The position numbers and the translations under genes were made by a program. This document shows positions 30,258 through 41,903 of a stretch of 64,000 nucleotides of DNA, in pieces. The notes under the pieces are model-generated. The model was not told the origin of the DNA. It saw only the letters and a program-made list of their open reading frames with translations, and made no database searches. Position 1 is the first letter of the stretch. Each line of letters starts with the position of its first letter. Origin of the DNA: an uncultured Oscillospiraceae bacterium (GTDB taxonomy: Bacteria > Bacillota > Clostridia > Oscillospirales > Oscillospiraceae); NCBI GenBank assembly GCA_934659425.1, contig CAKUHU010000006.1, positions 1-64,000 of the forward strand, in the 5' to 3' direction.

Positions 30258-31697
30258 ATGGCACAGGAAAAGAAACAGGTAGAACAGATCACGGATATGG
30301 AGGTGGACTTTGCCCAGTGGTTTACTGATGTCTGCCGCAAGGCGGAGCTCATCGACTACACCAGCGTGAAGGGCATGTTCATATACCGTCCCTATGGATA
30401 TGCCATCTGGGAAAATATTCAGCGCCTGATGGACCAAAAGTTCAAAGAAACAGGGCACGAGAACGTATATCTGCCAGTCCTCATTCCGGAATCTCTGCTT
30501 CAAAAAGAGAAGGACCATGTGGAGGGCTTTGCCCCCGAATGCGCCTGGATCACCATGGGGGGCAACGACAAGTTGGAGGAGCGGCTGTGTGTCCGCCCCA
30601 CCTCTGAGACCCTGTTTTGTGAGCACTATTCCCACATCATCCACTCTTGGCGGGACCTGCCTAAGCTTTATAACCAGTGGTGCTCCGTCCTCCGCTGGGA
30701 GAAGACCTCCCGCCCCTTCCTCCGTCACCGGGAATTTTTGTGGCAGGAGGGGCATACCATGCACGCCACGGAGGAGGAGGCCCGGGCTGAGACGCAGCAA
30801 ATGCTGAACATCTACGCCGACTTCTGTGTCAATGTGCTGGCCATGCCTGTGGTGAAGGGCCGCAAGACCGACAAGGAAAAGTTCAATGGTGCGGAGGAGA
30901 CCTACACCGTGGAGTGCATGATGCACGACAAGAAGGCCCTTCAGGCAGGTACCTCCCACTATTTTGGAGATGGCTTTGCCCGCGCCTTTGACATCACCTA
31001 CACCGGAAAGGATAACCAGTCCCACTATCCACATCAGACCTCCTGGGGGGCATCTACCCGGCTCATCGGCGGCATCATTATGACCCACGGCGACAACAAC
31101 GGTCTGGTGTTGCCTCCCCGCGTCGCCCCCACCCAGGTCATCGTGATCCCTGTGGCCCAGCATAAGGAAGGGGTCATTGAGGCCAACCGAAATGTGATGG
31201 AACGGCTGAAGAAGGCGGGTTTCCGGGTGAAGATGGACGATTCCGACCAGTCTGCCGGCTGGAAGTTCGCGGAGTATGAGATGAAGGGCGTGCCCCTCCG
31301 GCTGGAGCTGGGCCCCAAGGATATGGAGAAGAACCAGTGCGTCCTGGTCCGCCGGGATTCCGGCGAAAAGGTCTTCGCCTCCCTGGACGGCATTGAGGAG
31401 ACGGTGTGCAGACTGCTGGACGAGATCCACGACGGTCTCTATGCCAAGGCGCTGAAGAATCTGGAGGAGAACGTCTATCCCTGCGCCACGCTGCAAGAGG
31501 TCAAAGAGAAGATACAGGAGCGGGGCGGTTTTGCCAAGACCATGTGGTGCGGCGATTTGGAGTGCGAACTGAAAATGAAGGAGGAGGCGGGGGTCACCTC
31601 CCGCTGTATCCCCTTTGAGCAGGAGCACCTGGGCGACACCTGCGCCTGCTGCGGCAAACCGGCCAAGCAGATGGTGTATTGGGGCGTGGCGTACTGA
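30258..31697 (+). CDS. proS: Prolyl-tRNA synthetase (short, archaeal-type)
   Basis: A 479-residue class II prolyl-tRNA synthetase of the archaeal/eukaryote-like form, without the ~180-residue editing insertion of the bacterial form. Motif 2: [20 protein letters not shown]. Motif 3: [19 protein letters not shown]. It has an anticodon-binding domain and the C-terminal zinc-like domain (CGDLECELK and [10 protein letters not shown]), ending in tyrosine as typical. ATG 30258 follows AGGAGA. Monocistronic, with promoter and terminator. Confidence 0.95.
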
Positions 31698-31711: not shown

Positions 31712-31751
31712 AAAAACCCCGGGGCATGTGGCTGCATGCCCCGGGTTTTTA
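31712..31751 (+). terminator. Terminator after proS
   Basis: AAAAACCCCGGGGCATG and CATGCCCCGGGTTTTT form a strong stem with a T-run, 15 bases after the stop. Confidence 0.9.
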
Positions 31752-32343: not shown

Positions 32344-32372
32344 TTGCCTTTTTTGCCGGATAGAGTTATAAT
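32344..32372 (+). promoter_or_regulatory. Promoter of the aro operon
   Basis: TTGCCT (32344-32349), 17-base spacer, TATAAT (32367-32372). It gives a leader RNA of about 250 bases before aroF. Confidence 0.75.
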
Positions 32373-32404
32373 AATTTCAATCATTCCAAAGTGAGGGCAA
32401 AACA

Positions 32405-32503
32405 ATGGGTCAGACCATCCTCACAACTGCATCCTTTTTTACCTACTTTAGCCAGGCTCGATTTATGGGCGCTGGCTATTTTGGCGTGGGCGAAAAAGGA
32501 TGA
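32405..32503 (+). CDS. Phe/Tyr-rich leader peptide of the aro operon
   Basis: A 32-codon frame with a GTGAGGG ribosome site eight bases before its ATG. It encodes five Phe and two Tyr, including the runs SFFTYFSQARF and GAGYFGVG. It lies between the operon promoter and a rho-independent terminator in front of DAHP synthase. This is the signature of a ribosome-mediated attenuation leader that senses charged tRNA-Phe and tRNA-Tyr. The peptide itself is presumably only a sensor. Confidence 0.78.
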   Translation: MGQTILTTASFFTYFSQARFMGAGYFGVGEKG

Positions 32504-32593
32504 ACGAAATGAGTAGGTCCGATGGGGATCGGACATGATTTCCCGCATATGGAAGGGGCTCATTGATGTTCATCATCAATGAGCCCCTTTTTT
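32430..32593 (+). promoter_or_regulatory. Transcription attenuator of the aro operon
   Basis: Segment 1, CATCCTTTTT (32430-32439), within the leader Phe codons, is an exact complement of segment 2, AAAAAGGATG (32493-32502), at the leader stop. Just after it, AATGAG (32508-32513) can pair with CTCATT (32559-32564) in the 5' arm of the terminator. GTCCGAT/ATCGGAC (32517-32534) forms a small hairpin between. The terminator is a perfect 16-base stem, AAGGGGCTCATTGATG, with its complement (32553-32589), then TTTT. A stalled ribosome would free segment 2 to block the terminator; the exact switch is inference. Confidence 0.72.
32553..32593 (+). terminator. Attenuator terminator before aroF
   Basis: Perfect 16-base stem (arms 32553-32568 and 32574-32589), loop TTCAT, then a T-run, 34 bases before the aroF start. 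Its place inside the leader makes it a regulatory terminator. Confidence 0.88.
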
Positions 32594-32626: not shown

Positions 32627-33646
32627 ATGGTAGTCGTTATGAAACCGGGCACGCAGCAGGCAGAGATCGACAAGCTGATCGCCCAATTCCAGCTTCAGGG
32701 CCTTCAGGTGGGCATTACCAACGGTGTAGGCTGCACGATTTTGGGACTGGTGGGAGATACCACCGCTGTGGACATCAACAAGATCGGCACCAATGAGTAT
32801 GTGGAACGGGTCATGCGGGTCCAGGAGCCCTACAAGAAGGCCAATCGCAAATTCCACCCGGAGGACACGGTGGTGTCCGTTGGCTCCGCCAAGATCGGCG
32901 GCGGAAATTTCTCTGTTATCGCCGGCCCCTGCTCAGTAGAGTGTGAGGAGCAGATCATAGAGGTGGCCCGGGATGTGCAGGCCTCTGGTGCGTCCCTCCT
33001 CCGGGGCGGCGCCTTTAAGCCCCGGACCAGTCCGTATTCCTTCCAAGGCATGGGGGAGAGCGCGGTGGATCTGCTGCTGGAGGCGAAGGCGGCCACCGGC
33101 ATGCCCATTGTCACAGAGCTCATGAGTCCTAAGTATTGCCAGCTGTTTGAAGATAAGGTGGATATGGTCCAGATCGGCGCCCGGAATATGCAGAATTTCG
33201 ACCTGCTCAAAGAGGTAGGCAAGATGTCCAAGCCTGTTCTTCTGAAGCGGGGCTTGGCCAACACCTATGAGGAGTGGCTCATGGCGGCGGAATATATCAT
33301 GGCCGCGGGCAATGAGAACGTCATCCTCTGTGAGCGGGGCATCCGGACCTTTGAGTCCTATACCCGGAATACCTTGGATGTGTCCGCCATTCCCGCAATC
33401 AAGCGGATGAGCCACCTGCCGGTGATCGTGGACCCCTCTCACGCTGCAGGGACCTATTGGATGGTAGAGCCTCTGGCACTGGCCGCCGTGGCGGCGGGGG
33501 CGGACGGCCTCATCATCGAGGTCCACAACGATCCGGCCAACGCCAAGAGCGACGGCCAGCAGTCCTTGACCCCGGAGCGTTTCGACAATTTGATGAAGAA
33601 AGTGACCTCCCTGGTTGACCTGGTGGGGAAAACATTGGTAAAATAA
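32627..33646 (+). CDS. aroF: DAHP synthase (3-deoxy-7-phosphoheptulonate synthase)
   Basis: A 339-residue DAHP synthase of the AroA(I)-beta/KDO8P-like class, joining PEP and erythrose-4-phosphate at the entry of the shikimate pathway. The N-terminal ~80 residues form a ferredoxin-like regulatory domain (VVVMKPGTQQAEIDKLI). The barrel has AGPCSVECEEQI, GASLLRGGAFKPRTSPYSFQ, IGARNMQN and IVDPSHAAG. First structural gene of the aro operon, following the attenuator. The regulatory domain suggests feedback by an aromatic end product, as in Thermotoga-type enzymes. Confidence 0.95.
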   Translation: MVVVMKPGTQQAEIDKLIAQFQLQGLQVGITNGVGCTILGLVGDTTAVDINKIGTNEYVERVMRVQEPYKKANRKFHPEDTVVSVGSAKIGGGNFSVIAGPCSVECEEQIIEVARDVQASGASLLRGGAFKPRTSPYSFQGMGESAVDLLLEAKAATGMPIVTELMSPKYCQLFEDKVDMVQIGARNMQNFDLLKEVGKMSKPVLLKRGLANTYEEWLMAAEYIMAAGNENVILCERGIRTFESYTRNTLDVSAIPAIKRMSHLPVIVDPSHAAGTYWMVEPLALAAVAAGADGLIIEVHNDPANAKSDGQQSLTPERFDNLMKKVTSLVDLVGKTLVK

Positions 33647-33667: not shown

Positions 33668-34753
33668 ATGAAAACTCTCCATGTGAATTTGGCGGAGCGC
33701 TCCTACGACATTCTCATCGCCCGGGGCCTTCTGGACAAGGCGGGGACGCAGATCAAAGGGGTGTGCCCCAGGGCTGTCCGGCTGTTTGTGGTGACGGACA
33801 CCAACGTCCAGCCCCTATATGGGCAGCGGCTGGAGGATAGTCTGAAGAGCGTAGGTTTCCAGGTGGAATGTATGACCATCCCCGCCGGGGAACCGTCCAA
33901 ATGTGCCCGGCAGCTGGCTGATCTGTGGGAGAGGATGATGTCCTTTGGCCTGACCCGCACCGATGCTGTGGTGGCCCTTGGAGGTGGGGTCATCGGAGAT
34001 CTGGTGGGCTTTGCCGCCGCCACCGTCCTTCGGGGGGTGGATTTTATTCAAATTCCCACTACCCTTCTGGCCCAGGTGGACTCCTCTGTGGGGGGCAAGG
34101 TGGCCATCGACCTGGCGGCGGGAAAGAATTTGGCGGGGGCCTTCTGGCAGCCCAAGCTGGTCTTGATGGACCCGGAGGTCTTGAGCACCCTGCCGGACGC
34201 CACCTTTTCTGACGGCATGGCAGAGGTCATCAAATATGGCTGTATCGCCGACCGGGATTTCTTCCGGTTCCTCTGTGCCCATCCCAGCCGTGAGCAGATC
34301 ATGGAGGAGATCGAATCGGTCTTGTATACCTGCTGTGATATCAAGCGGGCGGTGGTGGAAGAGGACGAGCGGGATACCGGCCGCCGGATGCTGCTGAATT
34401 TTGGCCATACGGTGGGCCACGCCTTTGAGCTGGCGGGAAACTATGAAAAGTGGACCCATGGCCAGGCGGTGGCTGCCGGCATGTGTGTGGCCTCCCAATT
34501 GGGTTATCGCTTGGGTATCAGTGACGGGGACAGCCAAGAGATCCAAGAGCTGATGAATCTGCTGAAGGCGTTCCGGCTGCCTACCCACATCGACTGCGCT
34601 TGGAACGACTTGGTGCGGGCGGTGGGCCTGGATAAGAAGAGCACGGGAGACGACATCACCATGATTTTTTTGAAGCGGATGGGCCAGGCCGTTCCGGTAA
34701 AGATGAAGAAGGAGGACGTGCTCCGGAATTTGGAGACCGTCTTTGGCAGCTGA
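33668..34753 (+). CDS. aroB: 3-dehydroquinate synthase
   Basis: A 361-residue NAD- and metal-dependent enzyme converting DAHP to 3-dehydroquinate. The nucleotide loop is GGGVIGDLVGFAAATVLRG, substrate residues are in IPTTLLAQVDSSVGGK, and metal ligands include the His of NFGHTVGHAFE. Normal length, preceded by AAGGAGGTGG. It follows aroF by 21 bases in the operon. Confidence 0.96.
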   Translation: MKTLHVNLAERSYDILIARGLLDKAGTQIKGVCPRAVRLFVVTDTNVQPLYGQRLEDSLKSVGFQVECMTIPAGEPSKCARQLADLWERMMSFGLTRTDAVVALGGGVIGDLVGFAAATVLRGVDFIQIPTTLLAQVDSSVGGKVAIDLAAGKNLAGAFWQPKLVLMDPEVLSTLPDATFSDGMAEVIKYGCIADRDFFRFLCAHPSREQIMEEIESVLYTCCDIKRAVVEEDERDTGRRMLLNFGHTVGHAFELAGNYEKWTHGQAVAAGMCVASQLGYRLGISDGDSQEIQELMNLLKAFRLPTHIDCAWNDLVRAVGLDKKSTGDDITMIFLKRMGQAVPVKMKKEDVLRNLETVFGS

Positions 34754-34767
34754 AAAGGAGGGACCCC

Positions 34768-35934
34768 ATGACCGTCACCATCACGCCTAAGCTGCTGGCG
34801 GGGACGATCGTCCCGCCTCCCAGTAAGAGCCAAGCCCACCGGCTCATTATCGCCGCAGAGCTGGCGGGAGGAGGCACCATCTTCAACTTGTCGGAATCCC
34901 AGGATATTCAGGCCACAAAACGCTGTATGGCGGCTTTGCGGAAGGGGGGAGAAGCGCTGCCGCTGCTGGATTGCGGAGAGTCTGGCTCTACCCTTCGTTT
35001 CCTCATCCCCGTGGCTCTGGCCCTTCGGGGCGGCGGCCGGTTCACTGGCCGGGGTCGGCTTATGGAGCGGCCCCAGACGCCCTATTTTGAACTGTTTGCG
35101 GGAAAGGGGATCTTCTGTCAGCAAAGGGACGGGATCCTCACGGTTCGAGGAGGGCTGCGGCCGGGGCGCTATGCCCTGCCCGGCAATGTGTCCTCCCAGT
35201 TCATCACAGGGCTTTTGTATGCGTTGCCCCTGCTGCCCGGCGATTCCAGGATCGAGGTGACCACTGAACTGGAGTCCCGGGCCTATGTGGACATGACCAT
35301 AGAGGCGCTGAAGGTCTTTGGAGTAGAGGTCTCCTGGTTGGACAGCCGGACTTTGGCCGTGAGCGGAAACCAGCGATACCGGCCTGCAGCGGCGAAGGTG
35401 GAGGCTGACTGGTCCCAGGCAGGCTTTTGGTATGCGGCCAGGGCCCTGGGCAATCCGGTGGAGGTGGCCGGGCTGAATGTGGCCTCGGCCCAAGGTGACA
35501 AGGTGATCGCCGGGCAATATGACCGCCTGGGCCGGCCGGGGAATGTGGAGATCGACGTCTCCGGCTGCCCGGACCTGGTCCCGCCGCTGGCTGTCATGGC
35601 TGCCCTGCGTCAGGGAACGACCCGCCTGACCAATGCGGCCCGGCTGCGGATGAAGGAGAGCGACCGGCTGGCGGCGGTCCGGGAGGAACTGTGCAAGCTG
35701 GGCGCCTGGGTACAGGAGGAGCCGGACAGTCTCACCATCATGGGATCGGAGCATTTTGCCGGCGGAGCGGCGGATGCCCATAACGATCACCGCATCGCCA
35801 TGATGCTGGCCATTGCCGCCACCCGTGCCGATGGCCCCGTGACCATCACGGGAGCGGAGAGCGTCCGGAAATCCTACCCCACCTTCTGGGAGGATTACAC
35901 CCGCTTGGGCGGCCAGGTGGAAGAGCTCGGATAA
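34768..35934 (+). CDS. aroA: EPSP synthase, short form
   Basis: 3-phosphoshikimate 1-carboxyvinyltransferase. Substrate motifs: PPSKSQAHR (N-terminus), CGESGSTLRFLIP, NVSSQFITGLLYALP, RLRMKESDRLAA and NDHRIAMMLA. At 388 residues it is about 40 shorter than typical enzymes. The shortening falls mainly between the QATKRCMAALR and LDCGESGS segments, where one strand-turn unit is abbreviated. All catalytic motifs remain, so it is probably active. Starts 14 bases after aroB with AAAAGGAGGG. Confidence 0.93.
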   Translation: MTVTITPKLLAGTIVPPPSKSQAHRLIIAAELAGGGTIFNLSESQDIQATKRCMAALRKGGEALPLLDCGESGSTLRFLIPVALALRGGGRFTGRGRLMERPQTPYFELFAGKGIFCQQRDGILTVRGGLRPGRYALPGNVSSQFITGLLYALPLLPGDSRIEVTTELESRAYVDMTIEALKVFGVEVSWLDSRTLAVSGNQRYRPAAAKVEADWSQAGFWYAARALGNPVEVAGLNVASAQGDKVIAGQYDRLGRPGNVEIDVSGCPDLVPPLAVMAALRQGTTRLTNAARLRMKESDRLAAVREELCKLGAWVQEEPDSLTIMGSEHFAGGAADAHNDHRIAMMLAIAATRADGPVTITGAESVRKSYPTFWEDYTRLGGQVEELG

Positions 35935-35935
35935 C

Positions 35936-36333
35936 ATGAAAGGCTTCATCAGAAGGGACAAGTTCTTTTCCCTGTGCGGTCTGAACCGCGGGCTTTACCC
36001 CATGAATTTGGACGGACACTGCCCCGGCTGCGGTGAGGGCAGCCAGCCCTGCAAACTGGCCCGGTGCAATTTGGGACATGGAGGGATGGGGTACTGTTTC
36101 CAATGCGGGGAATATCCGTGTGGCCGCTATAACGAAGGGCGGCATAAGACTTTTACTGCACCGCGGTAAATCTGCTGGGGCTGGATGGGTTGAAAAAAGT
36201 GCTCTGTGGGGCGTAGAAGGGTTCGGAGCTTGCCGCCCTGACGAAAAAGGAGCAGGCAGGCCGGATAGCGGCTCAGTTCCATCAGCTGGCAGGACAAAAG
36301 TACTTGGAGCTGAAATTGCGAAAGAGGAAGTGA
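35936..36333 (+). pseudogene. DUF3795 pseudogene inside the aro operon
   Basis: It starts one base after the aroA stop. The first 70 codons give a cysteine-rich DUF3795 start: SLCGLNRGLYPMNLDGHCPG, then LARCNLGHGG and CFQCGEYPCGRY. Homology then jumps (apparent internal deletion) to NEGRHKTF. A one-base shift near 36150 moves the meaning to FYCTAVNLLGLDGLKKVLCG. A TAG interrupts at about 36214, and the frame continues ELAALTKKEQAGRIAAQFHQ to LKLRKRK and TGA at 36333. The gene is therefore broken three times but still occupies the gap before aroC without obvious polar structure. Confidence 0.75.
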
Positions 36334-36337
36334 CAGT

Positions 36338-37381
36338 GTGAAATACACCATCTTCGGCGAATCCCACGGACCGGCCATTGGCGTGGTCTTAGAGGGAGTC
36401 CCGGCAGGGCTGGAATTGGACTTGGAGGCCATGGGGCGGGAACTGTCCCGCCGTGCCCCGGGCAGAGATGCGCTCTCCACGGCCCGGAGGGAGGCGGACG
36501 AGGTCCAGGTGCTCTCCGGTCTTTTCGAGGGAAGGACCACCGGCAGCCCGCTGACCCTGCTGATCGCCAACAGCGATCAGCATTCCGGAGATTATGAGGC
36601 CCTTCGCTATACCCCCCGTCCCAGCCATGGGGACTATGCCGGCTTTATTCAAAGCAAGGGCTGTCAGGATTACCGGGGGGGCGGACACTTCTCCGGCCGG
36701 CTGACAGCGCCGCTGGTGGCGGCGGGCTCGGTGGCCAAGCAGCTTTTGGCCCGGCGGGAAATCTGGGTGGGAGCCCACATCAGCGCCGTTTATGGGATCC
36801 TGGACCGCCCCTGGGAGAAGGCGGAGGAGCTTCTGACTCTGGCGGACAAGACCTTTCCCGTGTTGGATGAGACCAAGGGCGAGGAGATGCGGGCCGCCAT
36901 TTTGGAGGCCAAGGAAGAGCGGGACTCGGTGGGTGGATCCATTGAGTGTGTGGTTTTTGGCCTTCCCGCGGGGCAGGGAGCGCCCGATTTCGGGTGTAAT
37001 GTGGAGGGTGTTTTTTCCCAATATTTGTTCTCTGTCCCCGCTGTAAAGGCGGTGGCCTTTGGTGCCGGTGTGGGGTTTGCCTATATGCGGGGCAGCGAGG
37101 CCAACGACCCCTTTGATGTGGAGGATGGCCGGGTGGTCACCAAAACCAATCACGCCGGGGGCATCAATGGCGGGATCACCAACGGGATGCCGGTGGTGTT
37201 TGAAGTGACACTGCGGCCGACTCCCTCCATCTCGCTTCCCCAGGAGAGCATTGATCTGCGGACGGGAGAACCTGCAGAGATCGAGATCAAGGGCCGCCAT
37301 GATCCCTGCATCGTCCACCGGGCGGTGCCTGTTATCGAGGCCGCCGCTGCCCTGGCTGCCTGCCAGGTGTTGGGGCTGTAA
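36338..37381 (+). CDS. aroC: Chorismate synthase
   Basis: A 347-residue FMN-dependent chorismate synthase (EPSP to chorismate). It begins YTIFGESHGPAIGVVLEGVP, contains RPSHGDYAGFIQSKG and YRGGGHFSGRLTA, and the FMN/substrate segment KTNHAGGINGGITNG. It starts with GTG 36338 after GAGGAAG, at the end of the DUF3795 pseudogene. Length and motifs are complete. Confidence 0.95.
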   Translation: MKYTIFGESHGPAIGVVLEGVPAGLELDLEAMGRELSRRAPGRDALSTARREADEVQVLSGLFEGRTTGSPLTLLIANSDQHSGDYEALRYTPRPSHGDYAGFIQSKGCQDYRGGGHFSGRLTAPLVAAGSVAKQLLARREIWVGAHISAVYGILDRPWEKAEELLTLADKTFPVLDETKGEEMRAAILEAKEERDSVGGSIECVVFGLPAGQGAPDFGCNVEGVFSQYLFSVPAVKAVAFGAGVGFAYMRGSEANDPFDVEDGRVVTKTNHAGGINGGITNGMPVVFEVTLRPTPSISLPQESIDLRTGEPAEIEIKGRHDPCIVHRAVPVIEAAAALAACQVLGL

Positions 37382-37422
37382 ATGGGGCGGATTGCTGAGT
37401 GTCAAGAAAGGAGAGGGATGCA

Positions 37423-38580
37423 GTGAGTGTATTGGAGGAATACCGCCGGCAGATCGACGAGATTGATGCCCGGCTGACAGAGCTCTTTTTGGAGCGAATG
37501 GAAGTCACTGGGAAGGTGGGAGAGTATAAGAAGGCAGAGGGCATCCCAGTGCTGGACAATCACCGGGAGCGGCAGGTCATCGCCTCAAAAATCGAGCGGG
37601 TCTCCACCCCGGCGGAAAAGTCGGATATTGCCGCCCTCTACCGCTCTATTATGGCCATCTCCCGCCGCCAGCAGCGTCGGCTGGTGCGGGAAGGAGCGGA
37701 GGATTTGGGCTACGCCCGGTGGCTTAAGGCGTTGGATGACCAGCGGCCGCCGGTGGGCCTGCCCCGGGTGGTATATCAGGGGGAGCCGGGGGCCTATTCG
37801 GAGGAGGCCGCAGTTGGCTTCTTCGGTGAAGATGTTGCTGCCCAAGGGCTGCCCTGGTTTGGAGATGTATTTCAGGCCTTGGCGGAGGGGCAGGCTGACT
37901 ACGCTGTGCTGCCCATTGAAAACTCCTCCACCGGTTCCATCCGGCAGGTCTATGATCTGTTGGGACAGTATGATTTTTCCCTGGTGGGAGAGTGGCAGGT
38001 GAAGGTGGAACACTGTTTGGCCGCTCTTCCTGGAGTAAGGCTGGAGGATATTCAGACAGTCTATTCCCATGAGCAAGGGCTGATGCAGTGTGACCGGTTT
38101 TTGGATCAGCACCGGGCTTGGCGGAGGGTGCCCGCCTTGGATACGGCGGGGTCAGCCAAGCAGGTGAAGGAGACGGGAGATACCACGGCGGCGGCCATCT
38201 GCTCCCGGAGGGCGGCCCGGCTGTATGGCCTGGATATTTTGGCTTGTCCCATCAATCACAACACCGCCAATTTCACCCGGTTCGTGGTGGTCTCCCCGGC
38301 GCTGGAGCTGCGGGAGGGGAGGGACAAGATCGCCGCGATTTTCTCCCTGCCCCATCAGAGTGGATCGCTCTACGAGATCTTGACCATTTTTGCCGTTTAC
38401 GGCCTGAACCTGCTGAAGATCGAATCCCGGCCCATCCCAGACCGGGAGTGGGAATATCTCTTCTTTTTGGAGTGCAGCGGAGATCTGACAGCTCCGGGCA
38501 TGGACGGGGTGGTCCATGAGCTGTCCCAGCTCTCCACCGACTTTCGGATTTTAGGAAATTTTAAGGGGTATGAGCCATGA
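37423..38580 (+). CDS. pheA: P-protein: chorismate mutase / prephenate dehydratase
   Basis: A 385-residue bifunctional enzyme making phenylpyruvate from chorismate. Residues ~1-85 are an AroQ-type mutase (YRRQIDEIDARLTELFLER). The dehydratase follows with YQGEPGAYSEEAAVGFF, LPIENSSTGSIRQVYD and NFTRFVVV. A C-terminal ACT domain (SLPHQSGSLYEILTIFAVYG, then LKIESRP) binds Phe as feedback inhibitor. GTG 37423 is chosen, nine bases after AAAGGAGAGG; the in-frame GTG at 37399 would precede that site. Its stop overlaps the aroK start. Confidence 0.94.
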   Translation: MSVLEEYRRQIDEIDARLTELFLERMEVTGKVGEYKKAEGIPVLDNHRERQVIASKIERVSTPAEKSDIAALYRSIMAISRRQQRRLVREGAEDLGYARWLKALDDQRPPVGLPRVVYQGEPGAYSEEAAVGFFGEDVAAQGLPWFGDVFQALAEGQADYAVLPIENSSTGSIRQVYDLLGQYDFSLVGEWQVKVEHCLAALPGVRLEDIQTVYSHEQGLMQCDRFLDQHRAWRRVPALDTAGSAKQVKETGDTTAAAICSRRAARLYGLDILACPINHNTANFTRFVVVSPALELREGRDKIAAIFSLPHQSGSLYEILTIFAVYGLNLLKIESRPIPDREWEYLFFLECSGDLTAPGMDGVVHELSQLSTDFRILGNFKGYEP

Positions 38581-39113
38581 AAAATGTGATTTTGATCGGT
38601 ATGATGGGCTGCGGCAAGTCCACAGTGGGGAGCCTGGCAGCCACCCGGCTGAAAAAAACGATGGTGGATACCGATAAACTGATCGAGGCCAGAGAAGGAC
38701 TGACCATCCCGGAAATCTTTGCGGTCCAGGGAGAGGGCTATTTCCGCTCTCTGGAGATGGGGATCGCGCAAGCCCTGGCCCTGCGGCAGGATCTTGTGAT
38801 TGCCTGCGGCGGCGGACTGCCCATGCAGGAAGAGGCCATGGCTGCGCTGAAGTCCAGCGGCATCGTCATCTGGCTGGATCGGGACCCTGGGGAGATCTAC
38901 GACAGTGAGCCTATGGAGGGCCGTCCACTGGCCCAAGATGGACGGGAGGGATTCCTCCAGCGGGCGGCTGAGCGGCGCCCGGTCTATGAAAAGTGGGCCG
39001 ATGCCACCATTCATGACTTCACCTCGCCTATCTCCACCACGGCCCGGGTGAAGGAAGCTGTGGAGGCCATCGTCTCCTGGGAAAGGGGTAAGAGAGAGGG
39101 GGATGGGGTGTGA
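38577..39113 (+). CDS. aroK: Shikimate kinase
   Basis: A 178-residue shikimate kinase with P-loop GMMGCGKST at the N-terminus, shikimate-binding DTDKLIEAREGLTIPEIF, the ERxFR-like GEGYFRSLE and the second glycine motif IACGGGLP. ATG 38577 overlaps the pheA TGA (ATGA). It ends in a GTGTGA overlap with aroQ. Confidence 0.94.
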   Translation: MKNVILIGMMGCGKSTVGSLAATRLKKTMVDTDKLIEAREGLTIPEIFAVQGEGYFRSLEMGIAQALALRQDLVIACGGGLPMQEEAMAALKSSGIVIWLDRDPGEIYDSEPMEGRPLAQDGREGFLQRAAERRPVYEKWADATIHDFTSPISTTARVKEAVEAIVSWERGKREGDGV

Positions 39114-39541
39114 AATTTCTCATCATCAATGGGCCCAATCTGAACCTGCTGGGAAAGCGGGAGCCAGGCATCTATGGGCAGGAGAACTATGATGTTCTCT
39201 GCCAAAGGCTCCGGGATTTTGCCGCCGCCCACGGTTCCTCTGCCCAGTGCTTCCAGTCCAATCACGAGGGGGCTATTATCGATGCCATCCACGCCGCCGA
39301 TGGAGTGTATGATGCCATTATCATGAACCCGGGGGCCTTTACCCACTACTCCATCGCAATCTTGGACGCGCTGAAGGCGGTGAGTGTGCCCTGTGTGGAG
39401 GTCCACATTTCCAACATCCACCAGCGGGAGGAGTTCCGCCATAAAAGCGTCACTGCCCCTGCCTGTGTGGGACAGATCTGCGGGTTGGGACTGTACGGCT
39501 ATGAGGCGGCTATGGGGTACTTTCTTGCCCAGGATCGATAG
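39110..39541 (+). CDS. aroQ: 3-dehydroquinate dehydratase, type II
   Basis: A 143-residue type II dehydroquinase, which forms a dodecamer. The N-terminal INGPNLNLLGKREPGIYG holds the catalytic Tyr-containing loop. NPGAFTHYSIAILDAL and HISNIHQREEFRHKS complete the site. GTG 39110 overlaps the aroK stop. Length typical. Confidence 0.95.
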   Translation: MKFLIINGPNLNLLGKREPGIYGQENYDVLCQRLRDFAAAHGSSAQCFQSNHEGAIIDAIHAADGVYDAIIMNPGAFTHYSIAILDALKAVSVPCVEVHISNIHQREEFRHKSVTAPACVGQICGLGLYGYEAAMGYFLAQDR

Positions 39542-39574
39542 GCACTGAGCGGGATTTTGCAGGAGGGGATCTGG

Positions 39575-40438
39575 ATGAAAGTGGAACTGAACAATACCAC
39601 AAGAAAGCTGTGTGTGATCGGAGATCCTGTGCTCCATTCCAAATCCCCCGCCATCCAAAATGCCGTGATTCAGGAATTTGGACTGGACTATATATACTTA
39701 TGTCAACCTGTGCCCCGGGGCCGGACGGAGGAGTGGCTCTCCTGCGCCAGCTTTATGGGATACGCTGGCTTTAACGCCACGATGCCCCATAAGGAGGAAC
39801 TGGTGCCTTTCATGGATGCACTGGATGAGACGGCCCAGCGGTGCAGTGCGGTAAATACGATTTGTATTAAAAATGGAAAATATTACGGATATAACACGGA
39901 TGGAGCGGGATTTCTTCGGGCGCTGGCCGATTTAAACGTATCTCCCAAGGGAAAGCGGGTGCTTTTGCTGGGCGCGGGAGGAGCGGCAAAGGCGGTGTCA
40001 GCTGCGCTGACCGGAGCGGGAGCCAGGGTGACAGTATGCAACCGGACCGTGTCTAAAGCAGAGGAGATCTGCCGGATGGCCCCTGACAACATGACCAGTG
40101 CCGGATTCGAGATAGAAACATTATGTAAACTATCTGAGGCGAGTGACGTGGTGGTAAACTGCACCTCCTTGGGGATGGCGGGGACAAAGGAAAACTTCGC
40201 GGATCTGTCTTTTATAGACATCCTGCCTGCTGGGGCGGCGGTGTGTGATGCCATCTATGCCCCGCCAGAGACAGCCCTGCTCCGCCGTGCTCGGGAGCGG
40301 GGGCTGGTGACCATGAATGGTTTGGGGATGCTGGTCCATCAGGCCATTTTGGCCCTGGAACACTTCACCGGAGAGGAACTGGATCGGGGGAGGGCAAAAG
40401 ACGCGGCATTGAAGGCGCTGGAGCAATTCAAAGGCTAA
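39575..40438 (+). CDS. aroE: Shikimate dehydrogenase
   Basis: A 287-residue NADPH-dependent shikimate dehydrogenase. Shikimate binding: GDPVLHSKSPAIQN and the catalytic Lys in ATMPHKEEL. Nucleotide binding: LLLGAGGAAKAVSAAL and CNRTVSKAEE, then INxxxG-like VNCTSLGMAGT. ATG 39575 follows GGAGGGG; the upstream ATG at 39557 precedes that site. Last gene of the aro operon, followed by a terminator. A tyrA gene is not seen here, so tyrosine synthesis would need a gene elsewhere. Confidence 0.94.
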   Translation: MKVELNNTTRKLCVIGDPVLHSKSPAIQNAVIQEFGLDYIYLCQPVPRGRTEEWLSCASFMGYAGFNATMPHKEELVPFMDALDETAQRCSAVNTICIKNGKYYGYNTDGAGFLRALADLNVSPKGKRVLLLGAGGAAKAVSAALTGAGARVTVCNRTVSKAEEICRMAPDNMTSAGFEIETLCKLSEASDVVVNCTSLGMAGTKENFADLSFIDILPAGAAVCDAIYAPPETALLRRARERGLVTMNGLGMLVHQAILALEHFTGEELDRGRAKDAALKALEQFKG

Positions 40439-41645: not shown

Positions 41646-41903
41646 AGCGCCTGTTTGGGCGCGTGATGCGATGATGCGGGAGATTGCTCGGAAACGAGGT
41701 AACTTCCGCGGAGTATGTCCGTTTGATCGGGCGGCTGAGGACCTCTGTGCCAGCGTATATCGCCGTGCTGAGGCAGAACCGGCCGGATAATCCCTGCCGG
41801 TTTTCTTTCTGCCATGGAGTGATACGCACGAGAAAGTGGACAGAAAAGTTCTCACCGTACGAAGCGTGACAAGCACCAACCGACACTTCGTATGTATTTA
41901 AGG
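41646..41903 (+). promoter_or_regulatory. Structured leader of the S10 operon with attenuator-like hairpin
   Basis: The 5' leader before rpsJ is gene-free and structured. GCGCC-TGTTT-GGGCGC forms near its start (about 41647). AACCGGC (41777-41783) with GCCGGTT (41796-41802) forms a hairpin followed by TTCTTT, like a weak terminator. TACGAAG/CTTCGTA (41858-41892) forms one just before the ribosome site. Ribosomal operon leaders often bind a ribosomal protein for feedback; which protein, if any, binds here is unknown. Confidence 0.5.

Follow-up and report, generated by a model that had tools for sequence, protein, structure and literature searches.

A predicted ribosome-mediated attenuator with Phe and Tyr codons before the aro operon of an Oscillospiraceae bacterium and its relatives

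Background

How transcription of the aro operon is controlled in an uncultured Oscillospiraceae bacterium is the question raised by the locus described here, where a short open reading frame and a hairpin lie between a promoter and aroF. Accounts of how amino acid synthesis is controlled in the relatives of these bacteria usually centre on T-boxes, which sense tRNA charging. In the enterobacterial pheA and trp leaders, a peptide with codons for the regulated amino acid is combined with alternative helices and an intrinsic terminator. A preliminary description of the locus, made from the DNA letters alone, had proposed attenuation of this second kind with tRNA-Phe and tRNA-Tyr as the signal, and had set it against a Firmicutes norm of T-boxes or TRAP. 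We analysed the locus in a stretch of 64,000 nucleotides (contig CAKUHU010000006.1, positions 1 to 64,000), called the window here, and compared it with related genomes.

Results and discussion

The leader and the operon behind it

The features of the locus are collected in Table 1. The leader gene encodes the peptide MGQTILTTASFFTYFSQARFMGAGYFGVGEKG, and no NCBIfam model matched it. The reading frame with its five Phe and two Tyr codons, the good promoter before it and its own ribosome-binding site had all been part of the preliminary description and were confirmed on re-reading. The genes behind the leader were assigned by Pfam matches, according to which the operon is aroF-aroB-aroA-aroC-pheA-aroK-aroQ-aroE, so that an enzyme of the Phe branch is encoded in it. 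Within the operon, some 400 nt that separate aroA from aroC (35935-36337) have no gene assigned to them.

Table 1. Positions of the leader elements and of the predicted operon genes in the window
Feature	Position	Strand	Remarks
Promoter, sigma-70-type	32344..32372	+	TTGCCT-17-TATAAT; 10/12 consensus score
Shine-Dalgarno of leader	32391..32397	+	GTGAGGG
Leader peptide gene	32405..32503	+	32 codons, 5 Phe and 2 Tyr
Arm 1	32420..32440	+	CUCA...CAUCCUUUUUU; overlaps first Phe codons; partner arm 2
Hairpin inside leader	32449..32478	+	conserved; loop GAUUUAU
Arm 2	32492..32513	+	GAAAAAGGAUGAACGAAAUGAG; at leader stop; partner arm 1 or arm 3
Intrinsic terminator	32552..32593	+	arm 3:arm 4 and U-tract
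Arm 3	32559..32574	+	CUCAUUGAUGUUCAUC; terminator 5' arm and loop; partner arm 2 (antiterminator) or arm 4
aroF	32627..33646	+	DAHP synthase, here called type A; Pfam, NCBIfam
aroB	33668..34753	+	Pfam
aroA	34768..35934	+	EPSP synthase; Pfam
aroC	36338..37381	+	Pfam
pheA	37399..38580	+	chorismate mutase-prephenate dehydratase; Pfam
aroK	38577..39113	+	Pfam
aroQ	39110..39541	+	Pfam
aroE	39557..40438	+	Pfam

In the stem of the strong terminator (32552-32590), 16 Watson-Crick pairs and one G-U pair give a folding energy of -29.7 kcal/mol, which none of 200 shuffled sequences matched, and U residues follow the stem. The 16-bp rho-independent terminator proposed earlier is thus borne out, and a consensus terminator scan of the window did not list this stem. 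The possibility that it belongs to the upstream gene, which is prolyl-tRNA-synthetase-like as judged by eye from its translation and ends at 31697, was rejected because that gene is followed directly by a terminator hairpin of its own (31718-31745) and because the promoter lies in between.

The alternative pairings also proved to be present. The segments CATCCTTTTT in the Phe codons (32430-32439) and AAAAAGGATG at the leader stop (32493-32502) are exact reverse complements of each other, as had been described. The other pairing claimed, in which AATGAG (32508-32513) invades the terminator arm through CTCATT (32559-32564), is complementary too, but the antiterminator had been understated, since GAUGAAC (32499-32505) is also complementary to GUUCAUC (32568-32574), and arm 2 therefore binds both the arm and the loop of the terminator. 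Taken together, the stretch GAUGAAC...AAUGAG (32499-32513) pairs with both CUCAUU and GUUCAUC within 32559-32574. Arm 1, CUCACAACUGCAUCC (32420-32434), shares the blocks CUCA and CAUC with arm 3 and for that reason resembles a decoy for this arm of the terminator.

Recurrence of the leader in Oscillospiraceae

Genome contigs were scanned with AroF and the best 80 of 459 loci were taken. An alignment running from leader to terminator holds for the window and eleven close relatives, and the core of the leader was described by a covariance model, R1, built with 12 sequences and 10 base pairs. When 400 genomes of the family were searched with R1, 60 were matched, with one match each (E <= 1e-3); judged by contig identity, nine of these sequences are training sequences and 51 are independent. 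In 60/60 cases AroF was encoded just downstream. At least 87 of the same 400 genomes carry an AroF that is at least 71% identical to that of the window, and 59 of these were matched by R1, the sixtieth match being at locus L146 with an AroF of 61% identity. In 28 of these genomes, out of at least 87 that have a type-A aroF, R1 found no match. Upstream regions were taken for 27 of the 28, one of them only 7 nt long, which left 26 that could be read; ten of these gave weak R1 matches (E up to 0.1), some of the unmatched regions carry aromatic-rich reading frames of different sequence, and nine of the 26 had neither a match nor an aromatic reading frame passing the filter within 330 nt. The type-A loci that were read further downstream had the same gene order in 10/10 cases, pheA included.

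The signals around the leader recur with it. A promoter like that of the window precedes 58 of the 59 leaders with sufficient upstream DNA, the window included, as compared to 7 of 1140 background windows, and 57/59 leaders have a Shine-Dalgarno-like motif by a lenient pattern. In leaders before the pheA-containing operon, Phe codons outnumber Tyr codons in 55/60, with five ties and no case of the reverse; L146 was left out of this count and the frame of L103 was set by hand.

Co-variation of the three helices

Arms were cut automatically from 61 sequences, and the duplex energy of each arm with its own partner was compared with that obtained when partners were swapped between sequences, using 5000 permutations. 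This test ignores kinship, and the automatically picked terminators of L123 and L140 are doubtful. The mean duplex energies with own and swapped partners were -17.6 and -14.8 for 1:2 (z -7.3), -16.7 and -14.2 for 2:3 taken as arm and loop (z -6.9), -21.2 and -17.8 for 2:3 with 8 further nt (z -8.1), and -23.9 and -15.4 for 3:4 (z -21.6). For each of the three helices 0/5000 permutations were as good. The control pairings 1:3, 1:4 and 2:4 were not better with their own partners in the same 61 sequences (z -0.2, -1.6 and 0.0, respectively). For 1:2 and 2:3, a median of about 20% of the partners from other species pair better than the own partner. That 1:2, 2:3 and 3:4 all fit their own partners is the pattern predicted by an attenuator and not by a plain terminator. 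Ribosome-mediated attenuation, the interpretation given in the preliminary description, is therefore supported by the parts that recur in relatives together with the co-variation of these helices, and we put the probability that the leader is such an attenuator at roughly 0.9.

The hairpin inside the leader gene is an addition to the preliminary description. Across the 61 sequences 92.0% of its cells are paired as compared to 86.5% in shuffled and at most 57.5% in slid alignments, and double changes are found at 5 of its 10 pairs. Its loop, CGAUUUA (window 32459-32465), is encoded by CGATTTA, comprising the Arg codon CGA and the Phe codon TTT, in 60/61 sequences. This near-invariance goes beyond what pairing or the peptide needs, and the loop may control how RNA polymerase pauses or be bound by a factor.

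Such a loop is not required by plain attenuation, and it could be read as the site where a regulator or metabolite binds the hairpin and selects between terminator and antiterminator, the reading frame being incidental. We consider this very improbable because the promoter, Shine-Dalgarno and ATG arrangement is conserved, the aromatic codons match the operon, and no Rfam family fits at the site: in a scan with Rfam 15 no family exceeded its cut-off at the leader, and the sub-threshold matches were far below the gathering scores.

The same loop codons bear on nascent-peptide arrest, which is known from TnaC-type leaders, where the nascent peptide arrests the ribosome in response to a free compound. 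Here the conserved core GWARFMGAGFFGM would stall the ribosome on a free aromatic compound and codon hunger would be secondary. The strong conservation of the core residues, the non-aromatic ones too, and the near-invariant Arg and Phe codons would fit, but the core overlaps the co-varying hairpin, which explains part of its conservation. Moreover, Gln takes the place of the core Trp in three sequences, those of the window, L121 and L124; in the window this replacement comes with a matching change across the stem, and L121 and L124 keep most of the stem. Arrest by the peptide is thus improbable, though less so than a binding RNA, and the codon content of the leaders described below also speaks against it.

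Position of the Phe/Tyr cluster relative to the predicted pairing switch

The effect of a stalled ribosome under the attenuator model was examined codon by codon: its footprint was masked, the transcript was folded as far as a point shortly beyond the loop of the terminator, and a stall was scored as ON when at least 8 antiterminator pairs formed. In the window, at least 17 antiterminator pairs remained with the ribosome anywhere from Leu6 to Arg19, a stretch that contains FFTYF; 5 remained from Phe20 to Phe26, 17 at Gly27 and Val28, and 8 from Gly29 to the stop codon. These 8 arm-3 pairs at the stop codon equal the threshold, and the window is therefore one of the 11/60 leaders that were ON with the ribosome at the stop codon.

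Over the 60 leaders, the ON fraction was 0.72-0.81 at codons -13 to -3 from the conserved Arg, and the main Phe/Tyr cluster sits at -8 to -4; the ON fraction drops to 0.33 at +2 and +3. At the later conserved Phe/Tyr codons (+1, +6 and +7) it was 0.42-0.57, and because these codons score only so much, Phe and Tyr are no more than modestly enriched among ON codons when the entire leader is counted (227/376 as against 850/1643). These later codons may be held in place by the RNA hairpin. When full-length leaders were folded to equilibrium, the terminator formed in 56/59, with a stalled ribosome or with none. As the terminator wins at equilibrium, the switch would work only where the antiterminator is the first to form and then stays in place. 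If folding is kinetic, the scan of stalls places the main Phe/Tyr cluster within the range of antitermination. Known attenuators likewise depend on the order of folding.

A model for control of the aro operon

From these features we infer that RNA polymerase would transcribe the leader while a ribosome translates it. When charged Phe-tRNA is short, or with less effect charged Tyr-tRNA, the ribosome would stall on FFTYF just past arm 1, and in relatives that retain the Trp codon Trp-tRNA would perhaps be sensed too. The footprint of the stalled ribosome would cover arm 1, leaving arm 2 free to pair with arm 3 as it emerges; with 2:3 formed the terminator would come too late, and the aro operon, pheA included, would be transcribed. 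When the tRNAs are charged, the ribosome would reach the stop codon and hide arm 2, arm 3 would pair with arm 4, and transcription would end after about 215 nt. Without translation 1:2 would form and the terminator would follow. Judged from sequence comparison, the attenuator probably senses chiefly Phe-tRNA, with the stalled ribosome switching the operon on. The signal named earlier, tRNA-Phe and tRNA-Tyr together, thus stands for Phe, given the excess of Phe codons, but not equally for Tyr, which dominates a separate leader before aroF-tyrA.

Phe-rich and Tyr-rich leaders before two DAHP synthase genes

A second AroF, 60-63% identical, is encoded in genomes G001-G003. Of 23 regions upstream of this second aroF type, 21 have a leader (none was obtained for L202 and L204), and Tyr codons outnumber Phe codons in 21/21. 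These Tyr-rich leaders (loci L115-L117, L175-L187, L201, L203 and L205-L207, with tyrA after aroF) have a CP motif near the end in 18/21 cases. TyrA follows the second-type aroF in all 23 loci read, 20 of which are among the 21 with leaders. Among 13 sampled genomes lacking a type-A aroF, four of which had two AroF matches (G265, G225, G006 and G185), there were 11 leaders and these were mixed, six with more Phe, four with more Tyr and one tie; tyrA came after aroF in 10/10 that were read and aroB was seen in 8/10.

Leaders with more Phe thus precede the operon with pheA and leaders with more Tyr precede aroF-tyrA, so that the codon content of a leader goes with the branch enzyme encoded behind it. 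This is what tRNA sensing predicts, and it counts against peptide arrest. In the Tyr leader the 1:2 hairpin co-varies (n=17, z -4.3, after removal of L180, which had an empty arm), and four candidate 2:3 pairings showed no co-variation, with z values of +1.8 to -1.1 (n=18 of the 23 upstream regions, L176, L177, L179, L202 and L204 being left out).

It seems likely that in this family each of the two DAHP synthase isozymes has a sensor of tRNA charging to itself, Phe-rich on aroF...pheA and Tyr-rich on aroF-tyrA, with a mixed leader before aroF-tyrA, mostly with aroB next, in the sampled genomes where the first type is absent. In that case sensing would have been divided between the two branches when aroF was duplicated along with its leader. 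E. coli has separate feedback-sensitive DAHP synthase isozymes, and the paired leaders would be an RNA counterpart of these. The matched leaders on the isozyme operons would be an experiment of nature in how duplicated genes divide their regulatory specificity, and from the leader codons one would predict, with nothing but DNA, which branch a paralogous enzyme serves.

Relation to known attenuators

The proposed attenuator shares with those of enterobacterial pheA and trp, to which it is likened by description, the codons for the regulated amino acid, the 1:2, 2:3 and 3:4 helices and the intrinsic terminator. Unlike those, this leader precedes a whole shikimate operon that starts with aroF, and its gene contains a conserved hairpin. 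The contrast with Firmicutes drawn in the preliminary description turned out weaker than claimed, as published leader-peptide attenuators of Firmicutes include those of his operons, in some Eubacteriales also (PMC2965389, PMC9413887), and of Ile/Leu/Val (ilv-leu) operons (PMC5794164), and an upstream reading frame before aroF is described in Acholeplasma (PMC8632094); the available parts of the his and ilv-leu reports describe the same mechanism class with other amino acids and operons.

Leaders before aroF are also known elsewhere. In Corynebacterium glutamicum, of the Actinobacteria, a leader with Phe-Tyr-Phe has been predicted before one of two DAHP synthase genes, which is like the arrangement here; unlike here, the available text of that report mentions no Tyr-type counterpart before a tyrA operon (PMC4046766). 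The element uORFC-13-1, with 24 representatives in Acholeplasma and in environmental sequences of unknown organisms, is, in the accessible part of its description, an upstream reading frame with at least one Phe codon followed by a terminator before aroF, as here, and is compared by description only (PMC8632094). Among the matches listed in a literature search of partial coverage, with few subscription papers, no aromatic leader attenuator was described in Clostridia, and no Phe/Tyr split between DAHP synthase operons. The mechanism class is thus already known in Firmicutes and aroF leaders are known elsewhere, and it is the paired Phe/Tyr leaders of isozymes that are the newer part.

T-boxes and the wider distribution in Clostridia

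Control of the operon by a T-box or TRAP, with the upstream reading frame unrelated, would agree with how common T-boxes are in this lineage: six genomes had 7-15 matches each (E up to 1e-3), 29 of the 79 being over the family cut-off. In Faecalicoccus L013, which lacks the leader, a T-box precedes aroF, so that another lineage uses a T-box at this gene. The T-box model (RF00230), however, had no match at the leader or elsewhere in the window, 20 of the regions taken upstream of aroF likewise gave none, and in the six genomes none lies within 1 kb upstream of either aroF; such control is extremely improbable here. A T-box is a sensor of tRNA charging as well, and in the attenuator proposed here the sensing would be done by the ribosome. 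No Rfam family matched the leaders in 20 loci scanned (the T-box of L013 apart), and Rfam annotation would therefore miss them.

A second covariance model was built from seven distant Clostridia with the core WG[FY][FY]FSAGYF, and it matched 46/391 genomes of the class (E up to 0.01 per genome, with about 4 chance matches expected), at least two of its training sequences being among the 46. Among the best 30 loci (E <= 1.2e-6), AroF was the first of nine query proteins downstream in 28, and TyrA-PheA and AroB were downstream in the other two (L251 and L272). By these model matches, a related type of aromatic leader occurs elsewhere in Clostridia, and such leaders would then be an old alternative, within Clostridia, to T-box control of aromatic synthesis. 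The candidate leader-peptide attenuator is well supported and recurs in Oscillospiraceae and other Clostridia, relatives of bacteria for which accounts of amino acid control usually centre on T-boxes.

Other RNA elements were also seen in these scans. A T-box match of 86.4 bits, below the family cut-off, lies about 2.3 kb upstream of the second aroF of G001 (G001:C12:187187-187435), and the window has a match to the azaaromatic (yjdF) riboswitch at 2143-2273 (69.7 bits) and one to the S10-Clostridia ribosomal protein leader at 41664-41734 (37.1 bits).
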